In this document: positions 25,906 to 37,138 of the stretch, piece by piece
How positions within the stretch are numbered: the first letter of the stretch is position 1
How the letters are laid out: each line of letters begins with the position of its first letter
Origin: Campylobacterales bacterium
Lineage (GTDB): Bacteria > Campylobacterota > Campylobacteria > Campylobacterales > QNZT01
DNA length: 64,000 nt
Assembly: GCA_024278835.1 (NCBI GenBank)
Contig: JAJRSK010000068.1
Span: forward strand, 1-64,000
Direction: 5' to 3'
Notes under the pieces: model-generated
Database searches by the model: none
What the model saw: only the letters and a program-made list of their open reading frames with translations
Told to the model about the DNA's origin: nothing
Position numbers and translations under genes: made by a program

Positions 25906-26910
25906 ATGAGATACATAGATAAGAACTTAAACAATAAAAAGATTTTGATTACTGGTGGGGCAGGCTTCATCGGGAGTAATCTAGCCTTTTACTTTCAAGA
26001 AAATCACCCAGATGCAAAGGTGACGATAGTAGATATTTTTCGCAGTGAAGTGCGTTTTTCTAACGGCAACTTGAAGAGCTTTGGACACTTTAAAAATCTC
26101 CTAGGATTTCAAGGAGAAGTGAGACAAGGGGATATCAATGATCCTAAAGTGATAGAAAAGATAAAAGAAGAAGGATATGACTATATCTTTCATGAAGCGG
26201 CGATTTCTGACACGACAGTCCTTGATCAAGCTATCATGATAGAGACCAATGTCAATGCCTTTAAAGCTCTCTTGGATGTGGCGATGGAGAGTGGGGCTAC
26301 GATGATATATGCCTCCTCAGCTGCGACATATGGCAACGCCCCTTCTCCACAAACAGTAGGCAGGGAAGCGCCTGAAAATGTTTATGGTTTTTCTAAGCTT
26401 ATGATGGACAATATCGCGTATGATTATATGAAACAGTATCCTGATGACACTATCGTGGGACTTCGTTATTTTAATGTTTATGGTCCACGAGAGTATTTTA
26501 AAAACAGCACAGCATCGATGGTCTTACAGTTTGGACATCAAATCCTCTCAGGCAAATCGCCTAAGCTTTTTGAAGGCTCCGATAAGATACTGCGTGATTT
26601 TATCTACATAGAAGATGTTATCCAAGCCAATGTCAAAGCGATGGTGGCAGGAAAATCTGCTGTTTTTAATGTCGGTACAGGCAAGGCACGCGCATTTGAA
26701 GATATCCCAAATATCCTCCAAAAGCTTTATGCTACAAATCTAGCAAATGCTTATATCAAAAACCCCTACACGGCGTATCAAACTTTCACACAAGCTGATA
26801 TCGCTTCAACAAGAGAATCTTTGGGGTATGAACCACGCTTCTCTTTAGAAGAGGGTATCGCTGCTTATAAAGATGAGATTAAACGCATCTATGAGAGTGA
26901 GCTATCATGA
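25906..26910 (+). CDS. hldD: ADP-L-glycero-D-manno-heptose 6-epimerase
   Basis: A 334-residue short-chain dehydrogenase of the extended epimerase type. The NADP loop is ITGGAGFIGSN at about 15-25; the catalytic region shows YASSAATYG and YGFSKLMMD (Tyr-x3-Lys), and RYFNVYGPREYFK is the conserved third block. It makes the L-glycero heptose donor for the LOS inner core. Its last codons and stop (CTA TCA TGA) sit within a TATCATGATA copy that also holds the hldE start. Confidence 0.94.
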   Translation: MRYIDKNLNNKKILITGGAGFIGSNLAFYFQENHPDAKVTIVDIFRSEVRFSNGNLKSFGHFKNLLGFQGEVRQGDINDPKVIEKIKEEGYDYIFHEAAISDTTVLDQAIMIETNVNAFKALLDVAMESGATMIYASSAATYGNAPSPQTVGREAPENVYGFSKLMMDNIAYDYMKQYPDDTIVGLRYFNVYGPREYFKNSTASMVLQFGHQILSGKSPKLFEGSDKILRDFIYIEDVIQANVKAMVAGKSAVFNVGTGKARAFEDIPNILQKLYATNLANAYIKNPYTAYQTFTQADIASTRESLGYEPRFSLEEGIAAYKDEIKRIYESELS

Positions 26911-29939: not shown

Positions 29940-30685
29940 GTGCGTGAGTTTTGGCAATTGATAAATTGTTTAAGATACTTATAAAATCTTCGGTTTGCAT
30001 TTGAGATAGAGAGGGTAAATCCTACCCAGCCATTTAAAAAGTAGAATCTGAGAAAATAACTTTGGATAAAGGCAAAAAAAGCCTTTGCAATTACAATAGT
30101 AAAAAAACATGTCTTTTTATTATCTGCCCCTAAATCAGTATATTTAATCATTTTAGTGAGTGTCTGATTGATATTGGTGATATTTAAGTGTTTAAACTCC
30201 CCTGCTATTTTTATCTGAGGATATCCTTTGTGGGGTATAATTTTTTCATGTACGAGGTTGTCGTTAAATTGACTTACTTTTTTATTATAAAGTCGGACAA
30301 TATAATCTTGACTGACAGTTTTTTTGCCTAAAAAGTAATTTCTCCTTTTTAAAATAAATTGGGTGTAAGGCGAACTATAATCTTGAGATGCTATTTCATC
30401 GATAAGGTGTGGGTTTAAAACCTCATCGCTATCCAATGAGAGAATCCAATCATTTTTAGCATAAGAGGCAGCGATATTTTTTGTTTTTCCAAAACCCTGA
30501 AATGTTCCTTTGATGATAGTTGTATTAGAAAATTGTGAAGCAATCGCTTCGGTTTGATCACTAGAGTCATTTAAATATACAACAACATCTTCAAATCTAT
30601 CAAGTGCATTGAGACATTCTCTAAGCGTTTCTTGTGCATTTTTTGCCACGATGACAACTGATATGTTCTTAATCAACAACTTCAA
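29936..30685 (-). CDS. Family 2 glycosyltransferase, WaaE/KdtX-like
   Basis: A 249-residue GT-A transferase: ISVVIVAKNAQETLRECLNAL at the N terminus, GFGKTKNIAASYA, and the DxD-type motif WILSLDSDEVLNP. It matches the WaaE branch, which adds glucose to heptose I of the LPS core. One hydrophobic C-terminal segment (FFTIVIAKAFFAFIQSYFL) may bind the membrane. Last gene of the minus-strand LOS operon; its start overlaps the kinase gene. Confidence 0.82.
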   Translation of the reverse strand: MKLLIKNISVVIVAKNAQETLRECLNALDRFEDVVVYLNDSSDQTEAIASQFSNTTIIKGTFQGFGKTKNIAASYAKNDWILSLDSDEVLNPHLIDEIASQDYSSPYTQFILKRRNYFLGKKTVSQDYIVRLYNKKVSQFNDNLVHEKIIPHKGYPQIKIAGEFKHLNITNINQTLTKMIKYTDLGADNKKTCFFTIVIAKAFFAFIQSYFLRFYFLNGWVGFTLSISNANRRFYKYLKQFINCQNSRT

Positions 30686-31397
30686 TTCCTTTTAATCTTT
30701 TTTTGAAATTTTTTTTGTTTTTATGGTGTTGAGACGCTTTTTGTGCAATGGTGTAAGCCTTTTGAAACTCTAAATTAGCATATTTTGCATAAGCTAGGAT
30801 AATGATTTTTAAATCTTCATCTTTCGCCCATAATTTAGCAAAATTTTCTAATCTCTCTTTTGTACTTAATTTTTTAAATTGCATTCTATTGACATCGACA
30901 ATTTTAAAAAGATAATGGTTCGCTTTTTTTTGTATTAAAATATTTCCAGGTGAATAATCAAGGTGTTTAATGCCCTTTTCATGTAAGGTGTAGCTAAAGT
31001 GTGCAAACGCTTTAAAAATAGATTCTTTATCTTTAAAGTGTGAGGTAGTTAAAACTTCCCGAATTGTAAAATCATAAATAAAATGCTCACTTATATAGAA
31101 GCTATGACTTATAAGTCCATACCTTCTGTACTCGATATATCCCACGGGGCTAGGTGTAAAAGTGGCAAGCTTTAGACTATTATGAAAAGATTTTTTTGCT
31201 TTGGATGCACGGAAAAAGGTATAAGCTATTTTGTTGATAAAATGGGGCACTTTAAAGGATTTTACCACAAAGTTATCGATGATTTTTATCTCGTTTCGTG
31301 CTTTATGGATACTCTGGTCTGCTTGGTTAAAGTGAGATTTTATCTTTAGCAGAAACTCTTTTTTATCATGATAGTGAGGGGCTATCTCATATCTCAT
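30669..31397 (-). CDS. LPS core kinase-like protein (WaaP/KdkA family)
   Basis: A 242-residue protein with a small protein-kinase-like fold. The catalytic loop is KHLDYSPGNILIQKK and the metal-binding segment FKIVDVNRMQF, as in WaaP/KdkA/InaA proteins that phosphorylate heptose or Kdo. The N-terminal lobe (NFVVKSFKVP) carries the candidate ATP lysine. An HYHD tetrapeptide near residue 9 comes from a TATCATGATA copy. Position between the ligase and a core glycosyltransferase supports a core phosphorylation role; the sugar acceptor is not determined. Confidence 0.77.
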   Translation of the reverse strand: MRYEIAPHYHDKKEFLLKIKSHFNQADQSIHKARNEIKIIDNFVVKSFKVPHFINKIAYTFFRASKAKKSFHNSLKLATFTPSPVGYIEYRRYGLISHSFYISEHFIYDFTIREVLTTSHFKDKESIFKAFAHFSYTLHEKGIKHLDYSPGNILIQKKANHYLFKIVDVNRMQFKKLSTKERLENFAKLWAKDEDLKIIILAYAKYANLEFQKAYTIAQKASQHHKNKKNFKKRLKGIEVVD

Positions 31398-32037
31398 CTT
31401 TTTTCTCCTCTAAAAGTATTACACTTGAGATTAGGGCAAAGAGTGCTAAGGTAAACATCTTTCTAAAAGGAACATCTAAAAAAGATGCAAGCAAGAAGAC
31501 TAAGATAAAAAGCATTTTGCTGTGTGCTATGGCAGGATTTTTATTGTTCGTCTTTGCCAAGGCATAAAAGATGTTGAGAAATAGTAAAAGTCCTACGATA
31601 CCCAACTGTGCTGTTATTTCAATATATTGGGCGTGGTAGTAGCCTATGAGATCTTTGATGCTACAGTTAGAAAATGTTTTATGTGCATTCATGCGCTCTT
31701 GTAGATAGATGAGATGGTCTTGAGTTCCCATGCCTAAAATTGGTTCTTTTTCAAAGACTTCAGCGGCAATTTTCCATGTGATAATACGCCCACCAAGTGA
31801 GGTACAATAATTTTTGTGGGTCAAATTTTGGATATCACTTTGTGCAATATCCAAACGCTTATGAAATCTTGGATTATGCTGATAGAGAGTGACAAGCAAG
31901 AGTGCGATGAGGGCAATAAGCGCCAAAATATAACGGTATTTAAGCTTGCTATAGAGTATCATGATAGCAAGTAAACCGACAAGATAGATACTTTGTCCCG
32001 TGCGACTAATGCCTAAAAAGAGAACAAGGGCTATCAT
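31387..32037 (-). CDS. O-antigen ligase-like protein, C-terminal half (split WaaL)
   Basis: A 216-residue membrane protein holding the second half of a WaaL/Wzy-type protein: the SRTGQ segment that opens the C-terminal part of the family, several helices, the large periplasmic loop with GMGTQDHLIYLQERM and YYHAQYIEITAQLGIVGLL (the conserved H-x-x-Y/L region), and final helices. It begins at an ATG inside TATCATGATA, overlapping the stop of the N-terminal half. The two halves join in family order, with the reading frame shifted by -1 at the junction. It may be a recent frameshift or a stable two-chain ligase made by coupled translation. Confidence 0.75.
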   Translation of the reverse strand: MIALVLFLGISRTGQSIYLVGLLAIMILYSKLKYRYILALIALIALLLVTLYQHNPRFHKRLDIAQSDIQNLTHKNYCTSLGGRIITWKIAAEVFEKEPILGMGTQDHLIYLQERMNAHKTFSNCSIKDLIGYYHAQYIEITAQLGIVGLLLFLNIFYALAKTNNKNPAIAHSKMLFILVFLLASFLDVPFRKMFTLALFALISSVILLEEKKDEI

Positions 32038-32594
32038 GATAGAGTATACAATAAAAGTGATTTCAAGCTCAGTCGTTTCTCTTGCTTGGCAAGTACTATC
32101 GTCATCAAACCGGAAAATGCCAAAAAGATACTATAAATTGTATGCCACATATGGACAGAGAGGCTTTTGGTATTGACTTCATGAAAGTCATACAGTTGAA
32201 AATAGACCGCAAGAGATTGTAAGAGAGATATGCCTAAACCTGCTAAAAATGCGTAGAGTAAATCTCTATATCTATCACTTTCAAAAGAGGTATAGAGGAT
32301 AGGAATGATAAGAAAATAGATATATTTAAAGTCATAAACAATGGCTTCTTGGTAGTTTTTAGGCTCTATCCAGAGGTAGCTTATCGTCATATAAGTACAA
32401 AAAAGCAGTAAAGAGAGAAGGAACTTTTGTCTGATTATTTGCTGATATTTAGCTTTAAAATCTCCCTCTAAAAGCCACAATATAAGAAGCATAAAACCAG
32501 AGATATTGATACCTGCACGAGAGAGCGTCGTGCTAAAGGCAAAGCATATTGCAAAAAAATAGAGTGCTTTTTTGAGATAAGGTTTTGCTATCAT
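32034..32594 (-). CDS. O-antigen ligase-like protein, N-terminal half (split WaaL)
   Basis: A 186-residue protein of five or six membrane helices (ALYFFAICFAFSTTLSRAGIN, FLLSLLLFCTYMTISYLW, YLIIPILYT and so on) that corresponds to the first half of WaaL-type ligases, and ends YTLS where a full protein would run on into the next helix. Stop and next start share a TATCATGATA copy at 32032; its own start shares the copy at 32589 with the waaF stop. Alone it lacks the catalytic periplasmic loop. Confidence 0.72.
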   Translation of the reverse strand: MIAKPYLKKALYFFAICFAFSTTLSRAGINISGFMLLILWLLEGDFKAKYQQIIRQKFLLSLLLFCTYMTISYLWIEPKNYQEAIVYDFKYIYFLIIPILYTSFESDRYRDLLYAFLAGLGISLLQSLAVYFQLYDFHEVNTKSLSVHMWHTIYSIFLAFSGLMTIVLAKQEKRLSLKSLLLYTLS

Positions 32595-33538
32595 GATAGT
32601 CTATTTTGAATTTCATTTAAAATCATCTCTTCCCCAATAGCGGCAATTTGTGCACTATCTTTGATAAGAGACTCCCCTGCATAGAGATAAGAACCAAAAT
32701 CGACTTTTGGCTTGACGATACTAAAAGGGCTCGTTCCTTGTCCTAGCAGGGTAATAAAGGGTGTCTGCGTAGCAGCAGCTATATGTATGGCAGAGGTATC
32801 TATACTTACCAATAAATCAACACTTGCAATGACATCGATAAATTGGGCAATGGTGGTTTTTGATGTTAAATCTATTGCATCTGGCATATATTTGGCAAAT
32901 TGCGCATTACTCGCTTTGTCATGCTTGTCCCCGAGCAAGAGGATTTGATAGGGAAGTTGCTGGAGTTGTTTGCAGAGTGATATGGCTTTGTCATGCGGGT
33001 AGCCTCTATCTCCTTTATCACTACCTAATACAAGGGCAATAGTCGGGGTAGATGTTTTGGTATAGAGGGTCTGTGCTTGAACAAATAGCTTGGTAGGAGG
33101 GAGTATTTCATAGATATCTCCTAGGTAGGCATTGACTAAATGTGCATAGTGGTTGCTATAGTGTCGTGCTCGATTTATCTTGGGTGCAAAATCTAGAAAT
33201 ATTTCTCGTCCGCCATTTTTATAGCCAATGAGAGTATCTATCTTGGCAGATTTAAAGAGTAGAGCAGCAGAGAGAGCATTATGGAAGAGTATGCCCAAAT
33301 CATAATGGTTTTTGCGTAGTTTTTTCACTAAAGTCCATGATTTTTGAACGCGATTTTTACCTCTTGTATCATCTATGAATATCTCTTTTATAGGATATCC
33401 TCGAAAAAGATCTTTGCAGTGGGCAGGCGTAACAACGCTAAACTCTGCCTCTTTATAGTGCTTTTGTAACAACAGCAGGGTAGGCATCATCATGACAGTG
33501 TCACCAATAAAGTTAGGAGTCTTGATGATGATTTTCAT
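32591..33538 (-). CDS. waaF: ADP-heptose:LOS heptosyltransferase II-like (GT9)
   Basis: A 315-residue GT9 enzyme. KTPNFIGDTVMMMPTL is the N-terminal acceptor motif of WaaF, VLGSDKGDRGYP and SVDLLVSIDTSAIHIAAA the donor-side blocks, and ITLLGQGTSPF the conserved tail. It adds the second heptose to the inner core. The DTVMMMP form favours WaaF over WaaC, and a clear WaaC is encoded at the other end of the same operon. Confidence 0.85.
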   Translation of the reverse strand: MKIIIKTPNFIGDTVMMMPTLLLLQKHYKEAEFSVVTPAHCKDLFRGYPIKEIFIDDTRGKNRVQKSWTLVKKLRKNHYDLGILFHNALSAALLFKSAKIDTLIGYKNGGREIFLDFAPKINRARHYSNHYAHLVNAYLGDIYEILPPTKLFVQAQTLYTKTSTPTIALVLGSDKGDRGYPHDKAISLCKQLQQLPYQILLLGDKHDKASNAQFAKYMPDAIDLTSKTTIAQFIDVIASVDLLVSIDTSAIHIAAATQTPFITLLGQGTSPFSIVKPKVDFGSYLYAGESLIKDSAQIAAIGEEMILNEIQNRLS

Positions 33539-34787: not shown

Positions 34788-35032
34788 AGTCCAACTTTGA
34801 GAGAACGAGAAGGAGTGAGATGTGAGTAGAGAAATGTGAAGGACTCCCCGTAGGGAATGCAAACATTTATCTGCACACAGATCGCTTCTTCTCGTTCTCC
34901 CCGAAGGGTGCGTCGATTTCGCCCATAGGACTGCGTTGGATTTTATTGAATTCGCTATGGCGAGTCCTGCAAAAATCCGCCTTGCCTATGAACGAAATCG
35001 ACGCATCAAAGATGAACTATGTTAGTTGGTGC
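34774..35032. mobile_element. 259-bp MITE-like element between the sulfatase and glycosidase-like genes
   Basis: Terminal inverted repeats of 27 bp with two mismatches (34774-34800 and 35006-35032, beginning GCACCAACTAACATAGT). Inner pairs: GAGAACGAGAAG at 34801-34812 with 34888-34899, and GCGTCGATTTCG at 34910-34921 with 34993-35004, followed by CATAGG with CCTATG. No ORF. No certain target duplication. The last four residues of the upstream gene (HQLT) and the surviving 5' end of the sulfatase gene lie in the element, so both neighbours were altered by the insertion. It shares AGTCCTGCAA and CCGAAGGG with the element at 6111-6380. Confidence 0.75.
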
Positions 35033-36249
35033 GGTAATAGTATATGATAACAAAACTTACCCTCAGTAAATGCCTTGCCATAGAGAGAGAGCCCCCCTTT
35101 GATATCCAAGAGCGTATCTGACCAGTATATCATGATAGTTTCACTCTTTTTAGAAAAACGCATCATCTTTACCTCTCCTGTGAGATTTGACTCCTCTAAA
35201 TGCGCTCCTTTGAGGAGTTTTAGCATCGTTTGAAAGGCTACAAAGGCGGGGTATTTCTTGATGCCATCGCGGTTATCGACCAATCCATACCCCGGGGCGA
35301 TGAGTTGATGCCAATAGACTCTATCGACTTCTCTTGTACTGAGTGCGATGAGATAGTACTGTAACATATAGAGGGCGTAATCTTCAGGGTTTACACACTC
35401 TTTTTCGCTCGTAGGTGCGTAGGGGACGGTGTTGGAGAGTGGCCAGTTTGTTTCGGTGATGTAGAGTTTGTTACTGCTTTTGGGGGAGAGTATCATGATA
35501 GAATGAAGAAGATTTATTTTCTTTTTCAAGTCAAAGCCCATCTGTTTTCCCTCAGGAGCACCTCGTCTATCCACATAGAGTAAGGCAGTGAATATATCGT
35601 ACTTTAAAGAGAAAAAGTTAAAGAGAGAGCGAATGGTATAGTGATACTCAAAATCAATCACAGAGGAGCCTAAAAGCACTTTATCATGATAGCGTTTATC
35701 GCGTACTCTTTGGGCGACTTGATAAAGCTTGAGGTACTCTTTGATGGTATAAAAAGCCCATTTTTTACGGTTGATGGCATTGCCTATTTGAAATTTTTTG
35801 ATATGGGGAAAGGCTTTAAAAATCTTTTCTATATTCTCTTCAAAGAGGGAGAGGTTTTCGATGTTGTTTCTATCTTGGAGGATGTTTATCAAGATATCTT
35901 TGCCTTTAAATTTCTCGACAAAGGCAACATAAGCATCTAACTTCTCTATCTCCCAAAGTGGCAAGCGTATAAGCAAAGTATCTACGCCTAACTCTTCTAT
36001 CAGGGTAAGTGTCTCTTCTGGATTTTTATCAAGATTTACACCCATTGCAAAAAAGTTTTGGGTATCAATAACTCTTTTTTGTTGTAAAAAAAGATAGGAG
36101 AGGAGGATAAAAGGGGAGAGTATCACTGTGCTAAAGAGGGTGATAAGTTGGTCAAATATCGCTTTTTTATAGATACGCTTTTTAAACTTTTTATCTTTGA
36201 TGATGTGGGGCTGGTCTGAGAAGTTATCCCACTCAAATTTATCATGCAT
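35017..36249 (-). CDS. Membrane-anchored glycoside hydrolase-fold protein (clan A-like)
   Basis: About 410 residues from the ATG at 36249 (MHDKFEWDNF); this overlaps the lpxL stop and is better than the track start at 36303. One membrane helix (LITLFSTVILSPFILLSYLFL) is followed by a TIM-barrel-like region: FFAMGVNLDKNPEETL, LLIRLPLWE, KKFQIGNAINRKKW, and KLYITETNWPLS, where TETNW could hold a catalytic Glu. It resembles GH39-like putative hydrolases found in surface polysaccharide loci. The C terminus ends inside the MITE-like element and may be shortened. Substrate unknown; a role in trimming or sensing LOS or Pel is conjecture. Confidence 0.68.
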   Translation of the reverse strand: MHDKFEWDNFSDQPHIIKDKKFKKRIYKKAIFDQLITLFSTVILSPFILLSYLFLQQKRVIDTQNFFAMGVNLDKNPEETLTLIEELGVDTLLIRLPLWEIEKLDAYVAFVEKFKGKDILINILQDRNNIENLSLFEENIEKIFKAFPHIKKFQIGNAINRKKWAFYTIKEYLKLYQVAQRVRDKRYHDKVLLGSSVIDFEYHYTIRSLFNFFSLKYDIFTALLYVDRRGAPEGKQMGFDLKKKINLLHSIMILSPKSSNKLYITETNWPLSNTVPYAPTSEKECVNPEDYALYMLQYYLIALSTREVDRVYWHQLIAPGYGLVDNRDGIKKYPAFVAFQTMLKLLKGAHLEESNLTGEVKMMRFSKKSETIMIYWSDTLLDIKGGLSLYGKAFTEGKFCYHILLPHQLT

Positions 36250-37138
36250 TATAGATTTCCTTGTCATAGACTTTAAAACGCTTGTGAGACCAAAACCACT
36301 CATCTGGTCGCTCTTTTATGACCTTTTCTAAGATGTCTGCTTGGGCTTGATTGAGGCGTTTGATATCCTCTTCTTTGCTTAGACTTTCATCTATCATGAT
36401 AGGGGGATAGCAGGTAATGGTATGGTTTTTGAAGTCATGACTTGTGATATAGATAGGAATGATTTTTGCCTTAAATTTGCGTGCAAGGATAGAGACAGAG
36501 GGTGTCTGTGTCACTTTTTTACCAAACAATGTAACAGCTACGCTGAGATTTTTAGGGATACTTTGATCTACCAAAAGTCCAAGGATGCGTCCCTCTCCCA
36601 TCGCTTTTATCATCCCCTTTAATGCACCGCGTTTATTGATGAGTTCTACGCCTACTTGTTCGCGTCCTTTTTTGAGGTACGTTTGCATCAGCTTAGAGTC
36701 GAGTTCTCTTCCAACAGTAGAAAGTGGGATATCAAATCCTAGTGCAATGGCAGAGGGTAAAATCTCCCAAACACCAAAATGTGCTGTGATAAGGATGACT
36801 TTTTCTCCATTTCTAAGTAAGTTATCCAAAATCTCTCGGTTTTCAAAGTGGATGTTTTGGAGTATCTCTTCTTTGCTTTGTCTCTCTCTTTTGATAAAGC
36901 CAGCGATGCCGTGTAGGAGGTTTTGATAAGAGTGGATACCGATAGCTTTTTTCTCTTTTTCCTTCATCTTTGGAAAACAGACTTTTAAGTTGGCATGGAT
37001 GACATTTCTTCGTTTGGCAGAAGCAAAGTAGGCAAATCTAGCAAGAGCACGGATAATTTTATCAAGCCAAGATGCTGGTAGGGTGCGAATAAAAAAGGCA
37101 AAGAGCTTGTAGCTAAAGAGATAAAAGTACTCTATCAT
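36242..37138 (-). CDS. lpxL: Lipid A acyltransferase, LpxL/HtrB family
   Basis: A 298-residue member of the lysophospholipid acyltransferase-like family that adds a secondary acyl chain to Kdo-lipid IVA. The catalytic motif H-x4-E is ITAHFGVWE; GRILGLLVDQSIPK and RPDEWFWSHKRFKV are further signatures. An N-terminal hydrophobic helix anchors it. The start ATG and the waaC stop share a TATCATGATA copy at 37133. Confidence 0.88.
   Translation of the reverse strand: MIEYFYLFSYKLFAFFIRTLPASWLDKIIRALARFAYFASAKRRNVIHANLKVCFPKMKEKEKKAIGIHSYQNLLHGIAGFIKRERQSKEEILQNIHFENREILDNLLRNGEKVILITAHFGVWEILPSAIALGFDIPLSTVGRELDSKLMQTYLKKGREQVGVELINKRGALKGMIKAMGEGRILGLLVDQSIPKNLSVAVTLFGKKVTQTPSVSILARKFKAKIIPIYITSHDFKNHTITCYPPIMIDESLSKEEDIKRLNQAQADILEKVIKERPDEWFWSHKRFKVYDKEIYNA

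Follow-up and report, generated by a model that had tools for sequence, protein, structure and literature searches.

The ligase locus and its two reading frames

In the window, which is the whole 64,000-nucleotide stretch of DNA that was analysed, an LPS region contains two consecutive open reading frames on the minus strand, flanked by genes encoding a WaaF-like heptosyltransferase and a Kdo-kinase-like protein (Table 1). The TGA of the first frame (N-part) and the ATG of the second frame (C-part) share the four bases ATGA, and these lie inside a copy of the palindrome TATCATGATA. The initial annotation had described the locus as an O-antigen ligase gene split exactly at such a copy, and the sequence and the open reading frames agree with that description.

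Table 1. Coordinates of the split ligase gene, its neighbours and the nearby palindrome copies in the window
Feature	Position	Strand	Remarks
Ligase N-part	32034..32594	-	186 aa; ends LLLYTLS-stop
Ligase C-part	31387..32037	-	216 aa; starts MIALVLF; Wzy_C domain
TATCATGATA copy with the N-part stop and the C-part ATG	32032..32041		I-M-I if read in the C-frame
Stretch with both frames open	32037..32130	-	One indel here would explain the split; likeliest part ~32070-32100
Second TATCATGATA copy, within the C-part	31957..31966		In-frame I-M-I in the hydrophobic segment LLAIMILYS
TATCATGATA copy at heptosyltransferase stop and ligase start	32589..32598		True gene junction (ATGA)
Heptosyltransferase (WaaF-like)	32591..33538	-	Upstream neighbour of the ligase
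Kdo-kinase-like protein	30669..31397	-	Downstream neighbour of the ligase, as in genome G011

The C-part matches the Pfam family Wzy_C (PF04932) with an E-value of 1.1e-19 and a score of 71.2 bits (cut-off 31.7), and the N-part has no Pfam match. When the two parts were aligned to the intact ligase of genome G005 (about 412-413 aa), which is the nearest ligase and is likewise preceded by a heptosyltransferase gene, the N-part covered residues 2-178 with 40% identity and the C-part covered residues 192-403 with 46% identity. The N-part has the conserved Tyr (TIYS), and the C-part has the conserved Arg (ISRTG), Arg (GGR) and His (YYHAQY) as R12, R84 and H135 in near-invariant columns of the alignment. 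In E. coli WaaL these residues are R215, R288 and H338, and they matter in WaaL and its PglL relatives (PMC3643930). No second lesion was found in the C-part; since it shows no further decay, the break is either recent, an error, or tolerated.

The profile of the homologs also matched the solved WaaL structure (PDB 7TPG) with an E-value of 1.2e-26. An AlphaFold2 model of the intact G005 homolog (not of the split protein) had a pLDDT of 94.7, and 7TPG was its best and sole confident match in the PDB (E-value 3.4e-10, TM 0.71). The Wzy_C match, the end-to-end alignment with single-frame ligases and the profile match to 7TPG support the view, already put forward in the initial annotation, that both open reading frames belong to one WaaL-type O-antigen ligase with a broken frame. 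The locus shares with WaaL (Wzy_C PF04932; PDB 7TPG/7TPJ) the profile match, the conserved residues, the heptosyltransferase gene alongside and, as judged from the intact G005 homolog, the fold. It differs from WaaL in that it is not a single intact membrane protein: the ligase studied here is split into two open reading frames within a transmembrane helix.

In the alignment with relatives, the ligase is a single intact frame in 28 of the 28 full-length sequences used, and no stable two-gene or two-chain form was found among them. One of them is from genome G001, the only other genome of the genus compared, where the syntenic locus has an intact 406-aa ligase and the genes of the LPS core block are the same (hldD, hldE, gmhA, heptosyltransferase, ligase and glycosyltransferase). 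A scan of named relatives with the C-part found no relative. For the adjacent HldE, the best named relative is the uncultured Campylobacterales MAG SZUA-1433 with 83% identity; Sulfurospirillum and further uncultured Campylobacterales records come next, with 61-70% identity. The split gene is the only WaaL-like gene found in the genome studied here (G000). Two other Wzy_C proteins are encoded on contigs C57 and C55 beside exopolysaccharide-type or acyltransferase genes, and from the look of these clusters they are more likely polymerases. The LPS region of the window also encodes a 428-aa protein (35017-36303) with no Pfam or NCBIfam match.

Position of the frame switch

Upstream of the C-part ATG, the C-frame has no stop for 93 bases (31 codons), so that one indel anywhere in this stretch would make the N-frame terminate at the TGA within the 32032 copy. 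By codon usage, about 0.8-0.9 of the probability falls on a switch at codons 11-20 of these 31, and 1.7-2.9% is left for the copy itself. When frameshifts were simulated in membrane genes of the same genome, only about 2-3% of the true sites received so low a rating. When synonymous codon usage was combined with the homolog profile, at most 0.4% was left for the copy. The homolog profile alone was near-flat over the last 20 codons, and the copy kept 12% with all homologs or 0.7% with the two closest. Homology failed to pinpoint the indel: the closest relative is just 40-46% identical, a level at which the helix varies too much and no DNA alignment shows the lesion directly. Judged from codon usage and the homologs together, the frame probably switched upstream of the palindrome by 30-60 bases.

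We consider it quite likely that a small indel upstream of the copy, whether a biological one or an artefact of sequencing or assembly, broke a single-frame ligase gene, and that the copy sets the stop and the restart without being the cause of the break. Like every relative examined, the ancestral ligase would have had one reading frame, and the indel would have shifted this frame, most likely within those 30-60 bases. Before the shift, the copy at 32032 would have been an ordinary in-frame copy, with its I-M-I lying in a transmembrane helix. The shift would then put the copy in the stop phase (YTA TCA TGA), at which ribosomes would terminate, and some ribosomes may restart in the original frame at the ATG that overlaps the TGA in the motif to produce the C-part. 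Since the copy reads I-M-I in the C-frame, as does the second copy in the gene, it appears to be an ordinary in-frame copy in which the shifted frame by chance meets its first stop. Among random simulated frameshifts in this direction, 1.6% genome-wide end at a TATCATGATA copy. Given this rate, the few split genes and a reader attentive to the motif, one such coincidence is unremarkable.

The broken gene probably does not yield a working ligase. O-antigen attachment may be lost if the break is real, and the rough LOS phenotype suggested in the initial annotation is possible. As one frameshifted gene in one draft genome, the split gene carries little weight alone.

The indel may also be a sequencing or assembly error, in which case the frame would be intact in the living cell. 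This special case of the upstream indel is rather unlikely, but it deserves to be taken seriously: the assembly is a draft of 77 contigs, all relatives are intact, and the C-part is undecayed with its catalytic residues kept. On the other hand, only five split candidates were found among about 1235 gene calls compared with G001, which indicates that frame errors are not frequent in the assembly, and the 93-base stretch has no long homopolymer. We regard it as extremely improbable that programmed -1 frameshifting joins both frames. Both frames are open over the 93 bases and the homology is continuous across them, which speaks for such a mechanism, but the relatives need no shift. A slippery heptamer of the X-XXY-YYZ type was looked for and is absent from the overlap. 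The N-part has just one in frame, a minus-strand run of seven T (~32558) close to where this part starts; it is a possible slippage site but lies a long way upstream of the break.

Distribution and phases of the palindrome

The break itself is ordinary, and the palindrome is the unusual part of the locus. There are 42 copies of TATCATGATA in the window, while 0.13 are expected. In the whole genome (2.5 Mb) the number is 1549, or about 620 per Mb, versus 7 for the reversed control. G001 has 1009 copies (about 440 per Mb). None of the 248 other genomes of the order has more than 166, a number reached in the distant G056, and nearly all have fewer than 50. A literature search for TATCATGATA found only unrelated sequence matches.

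The consensus of the copies extends to YTATCATGATAR. Genes contain about three quarters of the copies, and only two phases occur there: I-M-I, the commonest (377 copies), and Y-H-D (230 copies). The third phase of YTATCATGATAR, which reads LS-stop (TGA) with an overlapping ATG, is never used by in-gene copies. At orthologous sites, G000 and G001 share 93 identical copies. Of 105 copies with the same amino acids in both species, 97 are also identical in DNA, versus 17% for other codon triplets. The DNA identity at the copies thus goes beyond the conserved residues, which indicates that the motif is maintained as DNA.

The palindrome also occurs at true gene junctions. In the part of G000 examined, 16 of 95 ATGA junctions lie in a copy, which is about twice the share among all ATGA words (8.1%); for G001 the figure is 13 of 95. 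In the window, the copies at 26903, 32589 and 37133 are the ATGA stop/start junctions of consecutive LPS genes. These junctions bear on the proposal in the initial annotation that a former frameshift has become a coupled two-chain gene, in which termination-reinitiation at the ATGA in the copy would produce two fragments that reassemble in the membrane to form the ligase. At the DNA level this arrangement is possible, as other true junctions share the ATGA in a copy. Termination-reinitiation at overlapping stop and start codons is established (PMC6728339), and the conserved residues are kept in both parts. The split ligase has the same four-base stop/start overlap as the ATGA termination-reinitiation pairs (PMC6728339), but here the overlap joins the halves of one protein, not two genes, and lies in a highly repeated palindrome. 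However, the break interrupts a helix, which spans residues 176-195 in the G005 model, and the first conserved Arg comes shortly after the break. Because each separately made chain would have only part of this helix, a working two-chain enzyme is unlikely. In addition, the relatives examined lack this form, and no Shine-Dalgarno sequence is visible by eye before the second ATG. Taking these points together, we judge the coupled two-chain ligase to be improbable. In a more general form of the idea, the palindrome would be a portable stop-restart cassette, reading LS-stop and then M-I, that turns upstream frameshifts into coupled and possibly functional two-chain genes, and the ligase would be a case caught in the act; we give very little credence to this possibility.

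The palindrome as a possible cause of the break and as a HIP-like element

To compare the ligase with other split genes, we searched roughly half of G000 (about 1.3 Mb) against roughly half of G001 (about 1.1 Mb), using simple longest-ORF calls and taking as a split pair adjacent open reading frames that share one longer homolog in the other genome. Five split pairs were found in G000 and one in G001, and only the ligase is split at a copy. The five pairs are an upper figure, as separate genes or true splits between domains may be among them. Two adjacent pairs of open reading frames in G000, at L156:4865-5968 and L095:4042-4905, match single longer G001 proteins with 72-95% identity. They are probably genes that have been frameshifted or split, and neither break has a palindrome.

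The initial annotation had also suggested that the break could have arisen through spread or conversion of the palindrome; in that case, the birth or conversion of the copy would have added or removed bases. The stop does fall exactly within the copy, and flanking gaps between G000 and G001 are slightly commoner at copies (47 of 408) than at random sites (196 of 2520). Gaps at the sites themselves are about equally rare (26 of 408 copies versus 110 of 2520 random sites), and the differences between the species at copies are almost all gap-free substitutions. The likeliest position of the frame switch is upstream of the copy, and no other copy splits a gene in the portions of the two genomes searched. 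The results argue against an origin of the break in the palindrome, which we consider very improbable, and the upstream indel is preferred.

Methyltransferases were considered as an explanation of the copy number. An orphan D12-type adenine methyltransferase (L266:1495-2505, contig C77 of G000) is common to both genomes of the genus, with 78% identity. Its orthologs with at least 59% identity are also widespread in genomes with few copies, so that its presence by itself does not account for the copy number. An N6_N4_Mtase was rejected as an explanation, as it is not common to both genomes of the genus. No clear link between a methyltransferase and the palindrome was found.

The palindrome matters more than the split ligase gene with which it coincides: a genus-specific 10-base motif with hundreds of copies per Mb, kept at the DNA level, is a HIP-like system outside cyanobacteria. 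Like HIP1 (GCGATCGC) of cyanobacteria (PMC4390886), it is a short palindrome with hundreds of copies per Mb, far above expectation (1549 copies versus 7 for the reversed control). The cyanobacterial HIP elements are GC-rich and have 1000-2000 copies per Mb (PMC4390886). In contrast, the palindrome described here is an AT-rich 10-mer (extended form YTATCATGATAR) with a GC content of 20% and about 620 copies per Mb, and it belongs to one Campylobacterales genus.
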